Assembly (NCBI GenBank): GCA_021432635.1
Contig: MU270159.1
Location: forward strand, 1-34,773
Source of the DNA: Thozetella sp. PMI_491
Lineage: Eukaryota; Ascomycota; Sordariomycetes; Chaetosphaeriales; Chaetosphaeriaceae
Reading direction: 5' to 3'
Length of the DNA: 34,773 bases
The translations under genes were made by a program, and so were the position numbers. Shown one piece after another: positions 15,472 through 28,546 of the stretch (position 1 is the first letter of the stretch; each line of letters opens with the position of its first letter). The notes below the pieces were generated by a model. The model did not search any database. It saw nothing but the letters and a program-made list of their open reading frames with translations, and was not told the DNA's origin.

Positions 15472-17653
15472 ATGCGGAGTGCTTGGTTTCTCGGCTGCGT
15501 TGGAGTGGCTCAAGCCGCTGGCCCGGGCTTCCTCCGATTTCCCATCGCCGTCAAAAGCCCTGCTGCGCAGAGCTCAGGAGCCTCCAAGAGGCAAAATGCT
15601 GTCGACTTGACCCGCGCCTTTTTGGGAGCCGCCTACACCATCGAGGTTCAATTAGGCACGCCAGAACAGACAGTATCGGTTCAACTCGATTCAGGCTCGT
15701 CAGAACTCTGGGTGAACCCCAACTGCTCTAATTACCCCGGCTTGGAGAATTGGTGTAAATCACAGGGCTTCTTCAACAGCTCCACCTCTTCCACATTTAA
15801 CAATACAGGCCCGGATGGCAGCATTGTGTACGGCGGCGGCAACGTAACGTTTAGATATGCTACGGACAACGTCCGCGTGGGTTGTAGGTAGCCACCAGGA
15901 AACCATTTCCATCTACACTGCTGGGTGATTGGACTAACCACTCTACGGCAGCTACGAAAGTTATTAGGCAGAGGTTTGGTGTAGCAACAGACAGCTATAC
16001 CGAACAATTCGGGATTCTAGGCATCGCACCGTACATGTATCCAGCATGCTCCGACCCATATTGCCAAGCGTATCTGGACAAGTATGCGCCTCGCTATCCT
16101 TTCTTCATCGAAAGCCTGGTCAGCCAGGGCTTCATCGCTAGTCAGGCCTTTTCCTTGGACCTTCGAAGCATCGAAAACCCAACAGGCTCTCTCATCTACG
16201 GGGGCATCGATACTGGCAAATACATTGGCGAATTGGAAAAGTTGCCAATCCCTTCGCCGTCTCAAACTCCAGATGGATCGATCAGGTGCGTACCGAAGCA
16301 TTGCCGTGAGCAGCTTAGGCTGAGAAAGTAAATGGCAGTCGATGAGTGCAGGGACTAATTGAATATAGGTACTGGGTCAGTTTGGACTCTGTTTCGACCA
16401 ACAACGCTCTTCTCAGCAATGGCAGTATCGTTGCGATCCTCGATAGTGGTAGCACATTGACACGGCTTCCGCCCTACTTACATCATGCCATCGCCCAGAG
16501 CATTCCGACCTCCCAGCTCCTCTCGGGCAACTCGGGACTTTATACTGTGAACTGCTCGATGATGGATGTGGATGCCACGGTGGACTTCAAGTTTGGAGGA
16601 AAGGTGATCCAGGTCGCCTACAAGGATATCATCTACATTGGGGGCTATCAGTTCTGCTTGGTTGGCACAGTTCCTGCCCAAGGTACGTTATACTTTCAGC
16701 GGCGGCCTCAAAGGCAGCAGTTCCAAATGCTGTGCTAATACGCTCAAGACGACTTTTACATTCTCGCCGACAGCTTCTTGCGGGCCGCCTATGTTGTCTT
16801 CGACATAGACCAGATGAATATTCATATGGCGCAGGCGGCTGATTGCGGCACCAATATCATGGCCATTGGCTCTGGCGCAGACGCCGTACCATCCGTAGTA
16901 GGAGAATGTACCAGCTCAGTCAAGTCCACGTCGTCCTCGGTAAGCGTTTCTACATCATCCGATTCTGCTCTTCTGTCAACTTCGACGGCGCTGTCGAATT
17001 CCTCTACGCCTGTATCATCCACCGAAGTACTTGTCTTATCTACCCCATCATCAACTTCCTCCACGACGTGGACTTCACCCATTACACCAGGCTCTTCTAC
17101 CTCCTTGGATTATTCTATCCTTCCCAGCTCCTCTTCGCTTTTAAGCTCCTTTACAACCCAGTCGATTGGTTCCGTGGAGGATACCTCTACAATTCAAGAC
17201 ACAAACTCAACGGTGATTCAGAAACTTCGTTCGACTCCCCGTTCCACATCTCATATCTCATCCTCTTCGTCCAAACCAACCTCGTCAACTAAGAAAACTT
17301 CGTCTTCCATGACAACTTCTATACGCAAGATTAGCTCTTCTACGTCTAAACCGAAATCCTCCTCAAAGCCGACACCCTCTTCAAAAACAACATCCTCGAC
17401 AAAGGTCTCTAGCAGCGCAGTAGCGACCTGCAAAGCTACCATTGTCGTTACTGTCACCAAAGTACACACTACAACTACAACAAAACCGATGGCTTCGACC
17501 TCTTCCTCTACAAAGTCTACATCGACGTCCACGAAGCGCACAACATCTTCTATGAAAGGGAAATCATCAACTACTAAGTCTCCTTCCTGTCGCACAACGG
17601 TTACCGAGACCAAAACGGCAATATCGACAAAGATCATTACAAAGACTAAATAG
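15472..17653 (+). CDS. Secreted aspartic protease (A1, yapsin-like) with Ser/Thr-rich tail
   Basis: Four exons, 15472-15883, 15952-16285, 16369-16682 and 16749-17653, close in frame to 654 residues. Introns are 68, 83 and 66 bp, each with a CTAAC-like branch. Residues 1-16 form a short signal peptide ending AQA-A. KR at 39-40 is a likely Kex2 pro-peptide site. Both catalytic motifs are present: DSGSSELW at 73-80 and DSGSTLT at 274-280. DSG in both lobes rather than DTG at the first resembles OPSB/yapsin-type enzymes. The fold ends near FDIDQMNIHMAQA. About 270 residues of Ser/Thr/Lys repeats follow, probably heavily O-glycosylated. No hydrophobic GPI tail is visible at the C-terminus, unlike true yapsins. 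An in-frame ATG at 15109 exists, but starting there would bury the signal peptide. Expected at the cell surface or secreted. Confidence 0.88.
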
Positions 17654-21153: not shown

Positions 21154-22958
21154 TTAGACCCGACTTCTCTGCTGCCTGCTAATCCATGGTCGCTTCCACT
21201 CTAATATCTGGATCAGTGCTATAAATCCGGAAAGTAATCCTAGAGACCATGACATTGCCGACCACCCTACCAGGTCTCTCACGAGGCCAGCCCACAGAGG
21301 CCCAATGACATAGCCAATGTGCCAAACGGCGTTGAATATGCCGTACGCTTGCGCACAAAGACCGCTTCTCCCATCTACCCCTCGACGGCTCTCTTCCGCC
21401 TCCTCAACAATACGACAGACTTCTCCAAGCAGAGGGTCCATTGCTAGATCGATACCAAGCCCAATGAAAAGGAGTAGAATGAAAAACACCGCCTTCTGTT
21501 CGACTGTGTCTTGGTTGATGAATTGCATAAGAATTAGGAGGGGGCACATGATGAGAAATCCAGCCAGGACTGGCCACCGTGTCCCGACGCGGTCAGCTAG
21601 TCGCCCGATGAGCGGAGAGCCGACGGAGGGGATCATGACCGGGAGGTATATCATGCCGGCACCAAGAGAATCCCATCCCCACAAATCCTCGACAAACACT
21701 GCTAAGACGGCCTCGAGCCCGCTCAGGATGATCTCAGCTGTGAAGATATTGAAGAGCGCCATGCACATCCGCGGAGAAGCGCACAGACGAATAACCTCTG
21801 GGACACGAAAGGATTGGGTTTGGGTTGGTTCAAATTCGTAGGTTTTCCAAGGCTGTGGCGGTTCTTGATATTCTTTTTCGGTGGGTGAGACGGCACCGAG
21901 GCGCATATAACTATAGTCGTCGACGTTTTGCTCAAAATGGGAGTCGCTTTTGCTTGTCATCTTGTATGACGTCTCATTCAGTCCTCCTGCTTCTGGATTC
22001 TCCTTCATGAGGAGCCGTAGCAAGATATCGAGGGCTACGAATCCTGTCATCAGCCCGAAAACAGCATCATACCCGAACTTGGCCAGGATAGCACCGCCCA
22101 ATAGAGGTCCGAAAAAGCTGCCCATACTTAGAGCGGTACTAATCCAGCCCATGTTCTCAGCAACGTGCTCTGTCCCAGCTTGCTCAACAAGTATCACAGA
22201 GCCACTGATGTAGACAAGCGATGCGGATGCCCCTAGAAATATCCGAGAAATGACTTGTAGTGCCAGACTGTTGCCAAACCACATGAGCAATGTGGCAGCG
22301 AGCTGGTTTATGAGGGCAACAAGAAAAGGAAACTTCTTAGAACTGCATTTCCCGACCCAGTAACCCATTGGTGCTAGAACAGGATATGTCAGTCAACTCG
22401 GCTCGACTCTTCTCATGACTTGCCTGGTGATGTTATAACTAAGCTCGGGCTAAGGGGCATTTACCTGAAAGAAAGGCCGCACCGACTCCATAGACTGAAA
22501 TCAAAAAAGAGTTCCATATTGCAACTATTGTGATATAACTTCTATTAGTCGAGAGAGGTCTTTCTAGTTCAATGCTAAAGAGTGAAGTACCTTTTTCCTG
22601 TGGGACGCAAGCTCGCTCACTCAAGGTAAAGGGCACTACCGGCAGAACAATTGTATAAAGAAGTGCATCCTGCGAGTGGTGAGAGTTGGGCCAATTTAGA
22701 TCGACAGGGGAAGACAAGGGCAATTAAAGGTTGAGTAGGGAGGAAACCGCAGAGGAGGGAAGCAATGAGGATGAGAGGGAACAGGAGGAGAGGCGGGGGA
22801 AGAGGGGAGAGGGGGGGGATGGGGAGAAGCCAACTGACCACCAGCTCCGAATAAGAGACCACAAGTGTGATGAACCAGGCTGAAGATCTAAAGTCGACTG
22901 GAGTCCCATCGACCGGGAAATGTATTGACATATCGGAATGGCGCTGGGTGCTCATCAT
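21154..22958 (-). CDS. MFS transporter, DHA1/vesicular-amine-transporter-like
   Basis: Four exons, 22958-22839, 22669-22591, 22524-22465 and 22373-21154, close in frame to 492 residues, the normal size for a 12-helix major facilitator. Exon 1 ends within helix 1 (WFITLVVSYSELV) and exon 2 continues it (DALLYTIVLPVVPF). Exon 3 holds helix 2 (WNSFLISVYGVGAAF). The junction to exon 4 gives FLSAPMGYWVGKCSSKK, the equivalent of motif A (usually G-x-L-A-D-R). A polar cytosolic loop lies between helices 6 and 7, followed by six more helices including LIGRLADRVGTRWPVL. Intron 1 (169 bp) is unusually long and pyrimidine-rich. The gene is divergent from homospermidine synthase across 372 bp. DHA1 transporters include yeast polyamine exporters, so polyamine export is a reasonable guess; drug or metabolite efflux is the alternative. 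Confidence 0.88.
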
Positions 22959-23330
22959 TAATCGAGAAAAAGTTCGGAATCTTCAGGTGGTAGGTGTGCG
23001 TGGGCCAAGAGGATAGGTATCGCCGCCTGATGTACCACTGTACCGGCTGCCAGATCATTATATATTTCAGGGCACAATCTCAATTCAGCAGGTATCTGGT
23101 GAGCACCTTGGGCTGACGCTTATGCGTAATCAGCGCTCAGAAGGGCAATTAGTGCCCAGAAGGCATGATTCAGCCGCATTCAATAGGTAATCCTTCCAGG
23201 CAACGTTGTGCATCCAGCATTAGCGGCACAGCATGCATCCGAAAGATGAGTAAGAATAGGTATCCTATCACCTGCACACGCATCGCCGATTTAACTTGCT
23301 GCGTCCTCCGCTAGCACTGACTTGTTGGTG
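22959..23330. promoter_or_regulatory. Shared divergent promoter, transporter / homospermidine synthase
   Basis: A 372-bp region between two divergent starts, short enough for shared control elements. No specific operator recognised. Confidence 0.5.
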
Positions 23331-24824
23331 ATGCTACACGTTCTCATGGAGAAGTTAGAAATGGTTCAGCAAAAGTTTCCAATGTTCGGCCACATCTGGG
23401 GTGCCGTCGTTATGATCGGCTTTGGCTCGGTCGGGCGAGGAACATTGCCTTTGATCTTCCGTCATTTCCAGTTCGATAAGAAACGGATGGTGGTGATCGA
23501 CCCCAGCGATGAAGACACCATCACGGAAATTCTGGCTATATACGGTGTCCGCCATATTAAACAGCATGTCACCGAGCAAAATTACCAGAATCTTCTCACA
23601 CCGCTACTAAAAGACGGACCTGGACAGGGGTTCTGCGTCAACCTGTCAGTCACGACCTCCTCACTAGATCTGATGAAGCTGTGCCGCGAACTTCAAGTCC
23701 TTTACATCGACACCGTCGTCGAACCCTGGCTCGGATACTGGGACAGAGAAATGGACATGGCCAGTCGCACAATATACGCACTACGCGACACTGTCTGTCG
23801 TGAGAAAGCACGGAGCCCCGGTGGCACCACGGCCGTCTTTACATGCGGTGCCAACCCTGGCCTGGTCTCATGGCTCGTCAAGCAAGCCCTCGTCGACTTG
23901 GCCAAGGATCTAGGCCTCGAGTATGAAGAACCGCGCTTCTACGATCAACAGGGCTGGGCCCAGCTTATGCGGCGCGCTGGTGTCAAGGGTATCCACATAG
24001 CCGAGCGCGATACTCAGCGTGCCAAGCATCATAAGCCGCTCGGCGCTTTCTGGAACACTTGGTCCGTGGAGGCTATGATCACCGAGGGTGTACAACCCGC
24101 CGAGATGAGCTGGGGTACCCATGAGAGGTGGATGCCCGGTAATTGCCGGCGCCACGCAGACGGTGTAGTCCATCTCGAGCAGCCTGGGGCTGGCACTATG
24201 GTGCGGTCATGGTGTCCCACCCCGGGGCCGCAGATCGGCTTTCTCATTGCGCATGAGGAATCCATCTCCATTGCCGACTTTTTCACGCTGCGCGATAATG
24301 ACCCAAAAAGTGACGATAATACGGGCAACCCGGTTGCCTTCCGGCCGACATGTCATTACGCCTACCATCCCTGCAACGACGCGATACTTTCGTGGCGCGA
24401 GATGCTAGCCAACGGCTGGAACCTGCCCCAAGTCCAGCACGTGCTTCAGGAGGCTGAACTAGTAGATGGTAGTGATGAGCTCGGAGTCTTGCTGTACGGC
24501 CACGACAAGAATGCGTACTGGTTCGGCTCACGCCTGTCGATTGAGGAGACTCGGCGGCTGGCCCCGTATCAAAACGCCACCGGTTTGCAGGTGACGGCTG
24601 GTGTCATTGCTGGTATGGCATGGGCGCTAGAAAACCCAACGGAGGGTATCGTTGGAGCTGATGAGGTGGATTACAAGCGTTGCTTGGAGGTCGCGAAGCC
24701 GTATCTTGGCATTGTCGAGGGCCACTATACAGACTGGACACCGCTGCAGGGCTCTCGGGGCCTCTTCCCGGAGGATGTCAATGCCAGTGACCCCTGGCAA
24801 TTTCAAAATGTACTGGTTCACTGA
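23331..24824 (+). CDS. hss: Homospermidine synthase, bacterial type (saccharopine dehydrogenase-like)
   Basis: A single intron-free frame of 497 residues from the first ATG (23331); a second ATG at 23346 gives 492 and fits bacterial homologues slightly better. The NAD-binding fold begins VMIGFGSVGRGTLPL at residues 27-41. Further family blocks are VNLSVTTSSLDL, LYIDTVVEPW, FTCGANPGLVSWLVKQAL, HLEQPGAGT, GFLIAHEESISIADFF and HYAYHPCNDA. This pattern is the NAD-dependent homospermidine synthase (EC 2.5.1.44) known from alphaproteobacteria. It makes sym-homospermidine from two putrescines, or from putrescine plus spermidine. It is not the deoxyhypusine-synthase-derived plant enzyme. No signal peptide; cytosolic. 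The lack of introns among multi-intron neighbours fits ancestral transfer from bacteria, but is not proof. The divergent MFS gene may handle the product (inference). Confidence 0.9.
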   Translation: MLHVLMEKLEMVQQKFPMFGHIWGAVVMIGFGSVGRGTLPLIFRHFQFDKKRMVVIDPSDEDTITEILAIYGVRHIKQHVTEQNYQNLLTPLLKDGPGQGFCVNLSVTTSSLDLMKLCRELQVLYIDTVVEPWLGYWDREMDMASRTIYALRDTVCREKARSPGGTTAVFTCGANPGLVSWLVKQALVDLAKDLGLEYEEPRFYDQQGWAQLMRRAGVKGIHIAERDTQRAKHHKPLGAFWNTWSVEAMITEGVQPAEMSWGTHERWMPGNCRRHADGVVHLEQPGAGTMVRSWCPTPGPQIGFLIAHEESISIADFFTLRDNDPKSDDNTGNPVAFRPTCHYAYHPCNDAILSWREMLANGWNLPQVQHVLQEAELVDGSDELGVLLYGHDKNAYWFGSRLSIEETRRLAPYQNATGLQVTAGVIAGMAWALENPTEGIVGADEVDYKRCLEVAKPYLGIVEGHYTDWTPLQGSRGLFPEDVNASDPWQFQNVLVH

Positions 24825-25385: not shown

Positions 25386-26168
25386 CTACTCAACGAGCTA
25401 CGAAATCCGCGTGTTAGCCTGTGTTAATACACAAGTAGAAATGCACTTACCCCGGCGCAGGCTTCATCCCCAACAGCGTCACATAGCACGTGGACATCTT
25501 CTGCAACTTCTTGCCTCGGGAGAACATCCTTCTCAACCAGCTTTGCAGGAGTTAGTTCTGGCATTGCACTGATCAGAAGATATGATAACTTACACCGGCA
25601 CAGGCTTCATCTCCGATAGCGTCGCAGAGAACGTGGACGTCATCCTCAACTACTTGGCGTGCGAGGACATCCCTTTCGACCAACTTTCAAAGGTTTAGCT
25701 CTCGTATAGAAACAATGAATTCTCAAAGACTTACACCAGCACAAGCTTCGTCTCCGATAGCGTCGCAGAGAACGTGGACGTCATCCTCAACTGCCTGGCG
25801 TGGGAGGACCCCCCTCTCGACCAACTTTCGAGGCATTAGCTCTAACGCTGCATCCATTATAAGTCATGTCGACTTACACCAGCACAGGCTTCATCTCCGA
25901 TAGCATCGCAGAGCACATGTACATCATCCGCTTCCTGTCGGGCGAGAATCGCCCTTTCGACGAGCTTGTAAATGCTTTAGCTCTAGAATTTCATTGATGA
26001 TAATCGAAGAGAACTTACACCGGCGCAAGCCTCGTCCCCGATAGCGTCACAGAGAACGTGGACATCATCCTCAACTGCTTGGCGTGAGAGGATAGACTTC
26101 TGCTGCAGCACAGGAGCCGCAAGCGCGACATGTGCGAACAGAACGGTCACGAGCTTTGAGAAGATCAT
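25386..26168 (-). CDS. Multi-repeat secreted RiPP-type precursor peptide (dikaritin-like)
   Basis: Six exons: 26168-26019, 25964-25878, 25824-25735, 25683-25594, 25540-25451 and 25397-25386. They are separated by five phase-0 introns of 51-54 bp, all with GTAAGT donors, and give 172 residues. Residues 1-17 are a signal peptide (hydrophobic LVTVLFAHVALA, then AP). Exons 1-5 each end with one copy of the core VHVLCDAIGDEACAG (last copy Ile to Val). Exons 2-5 each begin LVE[RK], then a variable residue, [IV]L[AP]RQ and an acidic stretch. Exon 6 adds only LVE and the stop. Core changes are almost all synonymous, so the peptide is selected. There is no KR; LVE[RK] and LxR-Q are the only basic cleavage candidates. 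Divergent to a UstYa-type oxidase, the classic partner of fungal RiPP precursors. Alternative: a pheromone-like or effector repeat protein. The product's structure is unknown. Confidence 0.88.
25398..26018 (-). repeat. Tandem exon-plus-intron repeat units (about 140-143 bp)
   Basis: Exon starts are spaced 140, 141, 143 and 143 bp apart (25964, 25824, 25683, 25540, 25397). The introns are also related: each starts GTAAGT and has an AGAGCTAA/AGAACTAA/AGGCTAAC branch block near its 3' end. The duplicated unit is therefore genomic exon plus intron, not coding repeat alone. Confidence 0.85.
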
Positions 26169-26980
26169 CTTGAATGTTGAGATATGAAAGGCGGATATTG
26201 GAGGGTGAAGAGAGTATGTTAGAGTACGAAAGATGTATTAGACTGTAGATGGTATAGATTGGGTGTAAAAGGCAACTTGTAGTTGATTCTTTCATTCCAG
26301 GTATATCAGAAGAGATTTAAACCCTCTTATATACTAGTTAGCCCTTCTGCCATTTCTCTTTCCGTCTTCCTAGCCGGCCGTCCTGAAACAGACGAAGATC
26401 TCACCGCTCACGTCAACTCCTATCTTGTCACCATCTTCGTCCGTCGCAACCCTCTTGGTGATAGTGGTCATGCCAAGTAGACCACGAGGTTCGATGCATA
26501 AGTGAAGAGGATCGATTATTGATTACTGCAGATATCAGCTCCATCCTTCCAGGCGACGTTCGCAGATAGAAGTTGTGTTTCTTTCTTATCAACGCTGTAC
26601 AAGATCACGATGCCCGTCTCTACACATGATCTCGATAGCCTCAAAGCATAGGGAAAGGATCCAAGCTGAGAGGTCAGACTATTACTAATCTGCAAGGTTA
26701 ATACTCCTTCTTGGGGCTGAAAGCGGCACAGGGGTGGCCGAATCCTCAGCTGGCAAACATACCTTATCGAACCCCGCAACCACACCCAAAATGGAATGAT
26801 ATCCTAAGCAGACTACTAAGTATACGTACCTTAGGTATAGTCATTCAAACGCGGACATATCTAGATATCAAAGCGCCTTCGTCACGCTCATTCTTGTTTT
26901 CTTCACCCTGTCGCCAACACTCAAGATTCCCAAGTATCTGCCTTAGTTTACAACTCTACCACACATTTCTATCAGGCAAT
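26169..26980. promoter_or_regulatory. Shared divergent promoter, precursor / UstYa-like oxidase
   Basis: An 812-bp head-to-head region between the precursor start (minus) and the oxidase start (plus). Small open frames around 26283-26480 and 26711-26980 have no family features. The second is simply the oxidase frame extended upstream of its own transmembrane start. A CCGGCCG palindrome-like site lies near 26371, but no bound regulator can be assigned. Confidence 0.5.
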
Positions 26981-27884
26981 ATGTTCTGGTATAGGCCCAA
27001 AGACTGTCCTCATCTGTCCTACTCTTTGCTTGAGAAGGATAATGTGGATGATGAAACAAATGGAGACAAGGAACGCCTTCAGCTTCCTTCGCATCCAAAA
27101 TCGAGGCAGCTTGTGCCAGGGCTTCTGCTCTGTCTCATCACAGTACTTGTGTTAACCAATTCTTTCTGGTTCTATCAAGTCTCCCGCACCAGAATAGACC
27201 TCTCCGCCGAATACTATCGTAAGTTCTAGTCCTAACTGTCTGCAACATCAAATTGAGATTGGTCTGGTCTAATAGGCGGTAGTCCAAACTTCATCAGGGG
27301 GACATCTACCGAAAGAGATGGCGCGAGAATACAAATTGTTTGAGGAAGACTTCGTGACAGATAACTTGACGGTTTCAACTGCAGCTTGGGCAACCCTTTT
27401 CCCAGGTAAGTATCAATGGCGATGTAATTGGCGGTCAAAATAGCAATGATCTGACGTTTCTAGATGGAAACGGCACTGTAGCCATACATGAATCGGAGAT
27501 TTCGGCGTTAGGCCTACCGCCATCGGTCGAGATGCCGGGCCAACCTGATTACTCAGTCTACTTGGTCGCTCAATTTCACCAATTACACTGCTTGGTAAGA
27601 TGGAACCACGATTTGTAGCAGTAATGGATATTGACCCAAGATTCTAGAGCCAACTCAGGTGGATAATGAACAGCTATTACTTCCAGGAGAACTTCTCTGT
27701 TCCGCAGCCCACGTGGGCGCACACAATGCATTGCTTAGACGTAATTCGTCAAAGGTTGATCTGTGCTGTTGATGGAACACTTATGGCCAAGACTGGTGAT
27801 CAGGATCCCGGCGTTGGCGCTATCCGAACGTGTGGAAACTTCGAGGCTCTAAAAGATTGGACTTCAGCGCGCCGAGCAGAGTAA
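26981..27884 (+). CDS. UstYa-family (DUF3328) oxidase
   Basis: Four exons, 26981-27218, 27283-27405, 27464-27594 and 27648-27884 (introns 64, 58 and 53 bp), give 242 residues, the usual size for the family. A single N-terminal membrane anchor spans residues about 45-65 (GLLLCLITVLVLTN), with a short cytosolic leader. Both family-defining motifs are intact: HQLHC at 159-163 and HTMHC at 189-193, followed by LDVIRQRLICAVDGT. The AAWATLFP and ISALGLP blocks also fit. In ustiloxin, phomopsin, asperipin and victorin clusters such enzymes perform oxidative cross-linking or cyclisation of the processed precursor; they also occur in cyclochlorotine-type pathways. Intron 1's acceptor is the second AG (ggtag), because only that keeps frame. 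Only one UstY gene is visible, whereas ustiloxin uses two. Head-to-head with the precursor gene. Confidence 0.92.
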
Positions 27885-28546
27885 TAAATTGAGGATCTTT
27901 GTTCATATTTAGCAGTAGACCGTTGAATTTAGCATATCACGTCACCGCTCCACTGGTGGAGTGCATCCCTTGCAGCGGGCTGAGCCGATCGGGAGCAATC
28001 TAGCAGCTCGAGAGCAAGGTACACCTCCTCTAGGATCATTAAGGTTGTCTTAATTGTTGAAAAGACTTAATAAGACCTTTCGCTGTCCAATTAGATAATC
28101 AGGAGCAAAGTGCCTTGAGTAAATGTCCCGGTGCATAGGATCTTGTGAGCTTCAGAGCCGGGCGTGGCAGCCAATAAGAAGGGGGGGGGGGGGGGGGTTA
28201 CACCCTAGCAATGTATATTACTAAGGGCGAAGACTAAAATCCTAATGGATATTTCAGAAATTGGAATTACAAAGCCACCCGCGGTGGATACTACTATAAC
28301 TCACTGTCACCTAGTGACGCTATCATTTCCCATCAGAGATGTGAGATGGATGGGGCGGGGACAACTGCCACAGAGCAGCGGTATGACTGATGTACCGTAA
28401 TCGGGCAACTAGAATAGGTCCGCGTGCTAAGACACTATATCCGTGAACAGGGGTATTACAGCGAATCTTGAGATATACAGACGAGCAGAAATGCATACAA
28501 TACCCGAAAAACAAGTGTATCACTTGGCCCTAAACCAGCTCCACCT
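27885..28546. other. Convergent spacer with poly-G tract
   Basis: About 660 bp between the oxidase stop and the end of the membrane-protein gene. No coding signal. Contains the G17 run at 28181-28197. Confidence 0.5.
28181..28197 (+). repeat. Poly-G homopolymer, 17 G
   Basis: Seventeen consecutive G in the sequence as given. The length may be inexact because such runs are error-prone in sequencing. Confidence 0.8.

Follow-up and report, generated by a model that had tools for sequence, protein, structure and literature searches.

An aromatic-free, two-cysteine repeat precursor gene paired with a UstYa/DUF3328 gene in Thozetella sp. PMI_491: a probable RiPP-like locus

Contig MU270159.1 of the ascomycete Thozetella sp. 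PMI_491, analysed over its complete 34,773 nucleotides (34.8 kb; contig C144 of a genome of 72.3 Mb in 157 contigs) and referred to below as the window, carries two genes arranged head to head: a gene for a putative secreted precursor made of five short repeats and a gene for a UstYa/DUF3328 protein. Judging from sequence comparisons, we consider it probable that one gene supplies the substrate and the other the modifying enzyme of a single pathway of the RiPP type (ribosomally synthesized and post-translationally modified peptides), apparently an atypical offshoot of a type of fungal peptide pathway already known. This reading is carried by the conservation of the repeats at the protein level and by a second pair of related units and a related enzyme on another contig of the same genome.

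The precursor gene and its predicted parts are as follows (window coordinates, all on the minus strand):
26168-25386: precursor gene, six exons joined into a 172-residue frame
26019..26168: exon 1, signal peptide-like start and unit 1, core DVHVLCDAIGDEACAG
26118..26168: signal peptide-like segment MIFSKLVTVLFAHVALA, residues 1-17, judged by eye
25965..26018: intron 1, 54 nt, GTAAGT ... GCTAAA ... CAAG, phase 0
25878..25964: exon 2, unit 2, LVERAILARQEADDVHVLCDAIGDEACAG
25825..25877: intron 2, 53 nt, phase 0
25735..25824: exon 3, unit 3
25684..25734: intron 3, 51 nt, phase 0
25594..25683: exon 4, unit 4
25541..25593: intron 4, 53 nt, phase 0
25451..25540: exon 5, unit 5, core DVHVLCDAVGDEACAG
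25398..25450: intron 5, 53 nt, phase 0
25386..25397: exon 6, LVE followed by the stop codon, as would be expected at the C-terminus of a finished core

All five introns begin with GTAAGT, measure 51-54 nt, lie in phase 0 and contain an RCTAAN branch-like site (of the GCTAA or ACTAA type) near the 3' end; in this predicted splice model, four acceptors are AAG and the last is TAG. Since the introns interrupt each unit at the same place, the unit boundary, one repeat corresponds to one exon, and with an intron at every unit, gene-prediction programs can easily overlook such a gene. A preliminary description of the locus had proposed a signal peptide followed by five 30-residue units with an invariant core. 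The five copies stand, their length is corrected to 29-30 residues each (followed by LVE and the stop), and the signal-like start was recognized by eye; four of the five copies carry the core VHVLCDAIGDEACAG unchanged, while in copy 5 V replaces I.

The differences between the copies show how the core has been maintained. Across the five copies (16 core codons, 10 pairs), 72 of 111.3 synonymous sites differ but only 8 of 368.7 non-synonymous sites, i.e., the proportions of differing synonymous and non-synonymous sites (pS and pN) are 0.647 and 0.022. Such a high pS together with a low pN indicates that the repeats arose long ago and that their protein sequence has been maintained; strong purifying selection acts on the window core. 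Among themselves, the introns have diverged to 44-67% identity. No Rfam family matched the window at gathering scores, and the Pfam matches of the precursor were weak (the best, Nitro_FeMo-Co, E 3e-5, under its cut-off) and were judged to be chance results of its repetition.

The adjoining gene is read in the opposite direction:
26169..26980, no strand: divergent intergenic region, 812 bp, from the gene coordinates
26981..27218, plus: UstYa/DUF3328 exon 1, encoding the N-terminal tail and a hydrophobic segment
27283..27405, plus: exon 2
27464..27594, plus: exon 3, with HQLHC at 27577-27591
27648..27884, plus: exon 4, containing HTMHC (27720-27734) and the stop codon

The four exons join into an open frame of 242 aa that matches Pfam PF11807 with E 1.6e-24 and 87.4 bits (cut-off 25) and carries the HxxHC(x)nHxxHC pattern (HQLHC at residue 159, HTMHC at residue 189), bearing out the earlier recognition of a divergent DUF3328 protein with both motifs; by these features the window enzyme is identified as a UstYa/DUF3328 protein. 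Proteins of this family have only recently been shown to be binuclear copper enzymes, forming dimers that are partly held by disulfides and a copper site built from the two HxxHC motifs (PMC12435403). Two cysteines outside the motifs, C203 and C226, are invariant in 4/4 aligned relatives, which is at most suggestive of a copper-dependent dimer, and a hydrophobic stretch at about residues 45-66, a candidate membrane helix, was seen by eye. The one relative found in the protein set was P0001 from Stipitochalara longipes BDJ (Helotiales, Leotiomycetes), the sole match among 180 candidates (46% identity overall, 60% over core columns); its single-sequence fold was poor (predicted local distance difference test, pLDDT, 43.4). 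Among solved structures, searched by sequence, none was related to the window enzyme (best E 0.11, an ion channel). The two start codons lie 812 bp apart, head to head; the intergenic region is a probable shared control region. An identical 10-mer occurs upstream of both genes (26202-26211 and 26900-26909) in the same orientation relative to each; about 0.3 such pairs are expected by chance, and it was not retained as a signal. A run of 17 G lies downstream of the UstYa gene (28181-28197).

Another important question is whether this neighborhood is unique. The genome search with the window enzyme gave, as its best match outside the window, a UstYa gene on contig C7 (region G000:C7:1165322-1175321, locus L043), and a second repeat precursor was found beside it:
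L043 5660-4751, minus: C7 UstYa gene
L043 2162-2725, plus: C7 precursor gene, intronless, 187 residues, six units, signal-peptide-like start

The two genes are 2.0 kb apart, with one frame between them that appears to resemble a 6-pyruvoyl-tetrahydropterin synthase. The C7 UstYa was modelled with four exons whose boundaries in the protein are those of the window enzyme, with less canonical donors, and among 18 other own-genome sequences aligned it was the nearest to the window enzyme (39% over 135 core columns). In a tree of 19 own-genome UstYa sequences and P0001 (137 trimmed columns; C144, C7 and C20 spliced, the others represented by frames in which a single exon holds both motifs, one of them, L023_10, doubtful), the window enzyme joins P0001 (0.970), then C7 (0.860), then C20 and C71 (0.945).

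The C7 units, exemplified by PSAVEILCSKDESSALCAGLVQR, share with those of the window the pattern V-x-[IV]-L-C-x7/8-C-A-G-L-V, in which V, L, C and then A-C-A-G-L-V are invariant across the ten distinct units of both precursors. An hhalign comparison of the two unit families gave probability 91, P 1.1e-6 and a score of 26.8, whereas none of 100 column shuffles scored higher than 14.3. For comparison, the probability for representative units from seven further UstYa-linked repeat families, described below, was at most 0.33% against the window units and 2.25% against the C7 units. The Smith-Waterman score between the families was 41, a value reached by none of 5000 shuffles (best 40). The C7 units are likewise constrained (pS 0.696, pN 0.124), and no solved structure was related to the C7 precursor by sequence (best E 0.25). 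On the evidence of these comparisons, the window and C7 units are related, and so are their enzymes.

Codon-level scans of the genome agree with this picture. The intron-junction codon pattern occurs at 25 places, with more than one unit at C144 alone, where all five are found, and the CAGLVxR codon pattern occurs at 24 places, with a cluster at C7 alone, where all six units are found; both narrower scans are blind to diverged units, and a broader codon-pattern scan gave 130 places. Repeats lying mostly apart from UstY genes, named in the preliminary description as one outcome that would speak against it, were not what we found: at both places with unit clusters, the distance to a UstYa gene is no more than about 2 kb. 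A genome search with one window unit returned only the five window copies and missed the C7 units, i.e., it sees close copies only, and genome protein searches with either unit family failed to recover the other. Thus, a plain protein search sees little of such short units.

How would such a precursor be cut? There are no dibasic pairs in the window precursor and only one (RK) in the C7 precursor. Tyr, Trp and Phe are absent from the window and C7 cores, the C7 core also lacks His, and each unit of both precursors has a pair of cysteines. At each window unit boundary, there are two candidate cut sites, LVE[RK] and [KR]x[IV]LxR before Gln, the latter being consistent at 5/5 sites. In the last unit the stop codon directly follows LVE, the very end that trimming of LVER would leave, which suggests that the finished peptide would run from Q to CAGLVE.

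In the pathway that we propose, the precursor would enter the endoplasmic reticulum and the two cysteines of each unit would pair; a membrane-bound copper UstYa dimer would oxidize the units; a kexin-like protease would cleave at monobasic sites (following [KR]x[IV]LxR, ahead of Gln, and following LVE[RK]); and a Kex1-type carboxypeptidase would take off the last basic residue. The outcome would be four different peptides, secreted and each 23-24 residues long (Q...CAGLVE), with copies 1 and 3 identical. DUF3328 reactions include halogenation, hydroxylation, isomerization and macrocyclization (PMC12435403), and the known dikaritin links use Tyr (PMC7329392). As the cores contain no aromatic side chain, a UstYa enzyme acting on these units would have to catalyze some other type of reaction; candidates would be hydroxylation, the joining of an aliphatic C-H carbon to sulfur or to another partner, or a different oxidation. 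The preliminary description had expected a cyclic or cross-linked peptide after the example of the dikaritins; the recurrence of the pair on C7 favors the pairing itself, whereas a cross-link in the dikaritin sense finds no support in a precursor without a dibasic site and without Tyr, Trp or Phe in its core. A Cys-Cys bridge combined with a UstYa oxidation of unspecified kind is, in our view, the better guess, and our confidence in any single reaction is much lower than that in the pathway. A bolder scenario, which we consider rather unlikely, is that a distinct copper UstYa lineage shifted from tyrosine cores to aromatic-free cores with two cysteines, forming a thioether-type or other aliphatic link in hairpins of about 24 residues that are released at monobasic sites; such peptides would make up a class invisible to surveys based on dibasic sites.

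Several results weigh against a processed and modified peptide. Besides the absence of dibasic sites from the window precursor and of aromatic residues from the cores, conservation was seen within the fungus's own genome only: homologues of the window precursor were not found at E 0.01 among 1182 candidates, and homologues of the C7 precursor were not found at E 1 among the best 8000 of a larger number of candidates. As the UstYa query itself found just one of 180 candidates, in a set that perhaps holds few fungal proteins, this absence of precursors is weak evidence. A CAGLV repeat precursor was also not found at the two further UstYa genes of this clade, those on C20 and C71; around the C71 gene, there were no repeats within 10 kb, and the eight signal-like frames given by a crude scan contained none. 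At 2.2 kb from the C20 UstYa gene lies a small secreted frame (L044, minus, 2507-2238) with one LC-x6-C stretch; it was considered as a one-unit relative and set aside as a weak lead, as it contains Tyr and a KR and matches only itself in the genome. Finally, the best of five single-sequence AlphaFold models of the C7 precursor was a regular helical repeat (pLDDT 70.6 and predicted template modelling score, pTM, 0.60; pLDDT of the others 66.3 to 51.0), which may be spurious.

The last result bears on the strongest rival explanation, which we nevertheless regard as unlikely: the precursor would be secreted uncut as a chain of joined, disulfide-closed helical hairpins, with a role at the surface or of the effector type along the lines of Venturia Cin1, and the UstYa enzyme would modify nothing or something else. 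In its favor are the two cysteines per unit, the missing dibasic site in the window precursor, the best of the five C7 models, in which each unit is predicted as a helix-loop-helix with one Cys per helix, and the precedent of Cin1, which is secreted, rich in Cys and built of eight helix-loop-helix repeats (PMC4617103, PMC9632046). Cin1 is likened here by its description, and its units, unlike those of the window, are 52-64 residues long; it was not among the 50 fold matches listed for the C7 precursor, which excludes nothing. Repeats often fold into regular helices when modelled without an alignment, however, the fold matches of the C7 model were generic helical repeats, and a released peptide could carry the same hairpin. 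Helix propensities separate the classes poorly (window units 1.11, C7 units 1.03, seven other families 0.91-1.07).

We regard it as still less likely that the precursor is cut into unmodified linear or disulfide-bonded two-cysteine peptides that act as pheromone-like signals, with no UstYa step. Many ascomycete alpha-pheromones do have two conserved cysteines and repeat precursors (PMC6339444), but the units described here lack the alpha-pheromone motifs, namely Trp, GQxC (G-Q-x-C) and a PCW ending, and the Cys-free pheromone types of the same survey fit no better (PMC6339444). In addition, annotated pheromone precursors are, with three exceptions, without a DUF3328 neighbor (PMC7329392), whereas both loci here have one. 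That precursor and UstYa gene are functionally unrelated chance neighbors is very improbable: the genome is indeed rich in UstYa genes, with about 126 gene places in 108 groups (merged genome scans; a rough figure, one scan having scored 150 of 203 candidates), but with genes that dense, only some 0.09% of all genes should have a divergent UstYa start less than 1 kb away, and the pair is found a second time, with an enzyme and units related to those of the window.

The reading of the pair as substrate and enzyme places it beside several known systems. Like the window precursor, whose signal peptide is putative, the dikaritins (ustiloxin, phomopsin, asperipin-2a) have a signal peptide, tandem units and an adjoining DUF3328/UstYa gene (PMC7329392, PMC6514808). 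The window precursor differs from them in its two cysteines, in having no dibasic Kex2 site and no aromatic core residue, in the predicted peptide of 23-24 residues and in the intron at each unit boundary; a tyrosinase was not found among ten neighboring frames scanned, a subset of the window frames. Kex2-processed repeat proteins (KEPs) were defined by Umemura (2020) by at least three repeats of at least eight aa between KR, KK, RK or RR, and another KEP survey demands KR, RR or KK sites; the window precursor falls outside the dibasic-site definition of both. As both surveys require such sites, precursors of the window type would have been passed over. Of the surveyed KEPs, 22% have a DUF3328 neighbor, and in those 34% of the repeated sequences have no Tyr (from 65.6%; PMC7329392); with about one-third of DUF3328-linked KEP repeats lacking it, the absence of Tyr alone has precedent. 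Since dibasic sites and an aromatic core are both missing, the precursor lies outside the dikaritins and KEPs, and we would not file it with them, though it probably works like one.

The epichloecyclins of the gigA cluster resemble the window pair in their imperfect 27-residue repeats and a UstYa-like gene in the cluster (PMC7317419, PMC8982410) but have Tyr-containing cyclic cores of nine residues and KR sites (PMC6514808); the gigA cluster also includes a kexin gene (PMC8982410, PMC7317419), and none was seen among the same ten frames here. The cyclochlorotine hydroxylase CctR has, like the window UstYa, the HxxHC(x)nHxxHC copper motif and further cysteines, as well as a membrane helix, for which the window enzyme has a candidate in its hydrophobic stretch; the substrate of CctR is a non-ribosomal peptide (PMC12435403). 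In the open-access literature available in part to us (supplementary tables excluded), we recognized no description of a two-cysteine, aromatic-free family of UstYa substrates, in agreement with the earlier remark that no described product has this core. A family of aromatic-free substrates with a conserved Cys pair, linked to a UstYa branch of its own, would raise the question of which further reactions DUF3328 enzymes carry out.

Among the other UstYa loci of the genome, 25 regions besides the window were read (13 of 10 kb and 12 of 3.2-3.7 kb) with a repeat-frame scan requiring three identical 7-mers, or 6-mers twice, which one-unit or diverged precursors escape. Repeat frames were found in eight of the 25 regions (on C2, C18, C25, C36, C63, C84 and two on C7); those on C2, C18 and C63 extend beyond the stretch read. 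Seven of the eight (L002, L003, L007, L037, L045, L046 and L052; examples QLYRDNGGGYSALVPGDVEKR and SEAQSPDILYNNPAGWGKR) have a representative core with Tyr or Trp and without Cys, and the eighth is the C7 CAGLV precursor. Regular KR sites are present in five of the eight. The boundaries are mixed or monobasic on C63 (KPR, KAR, KRR) and C18 (KGR), and on C84 the first boundary is EER/Q, while the following ones are EKR/Q. The replacement of EKR by EER on C84, together with the C63 and C18 sites, suggests that the source fungus probably cuts some monobasic sites, and the varying boundaries at L007 and L052 (C63, C84) offer a natural test of monobasic processing. Among yeast killer toxins, some have confirmed monobasic sites (PMC13211469).

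As regards the neighboring genes, the precursor is adjoined in the window by an MFS (major facilitator superfamily) transporter gene (21154-22392, minus) and a gene for a saccharopine-dehydrogenase-type protein (23295-24824, plus), both of which could belong to the same cluster. Farther away, at 15631-16837 on the plus strand, exons for an aspartyl protease precede a stretch rich in Ser and Thr; we presume this gene to be yapsin-like. Yapsins cut at single basic residues, and a yapsin-type route via this protease was considered and set aside, as the genome has 111 PF00026 exon matches and a distance of about 8.5 kb says little.
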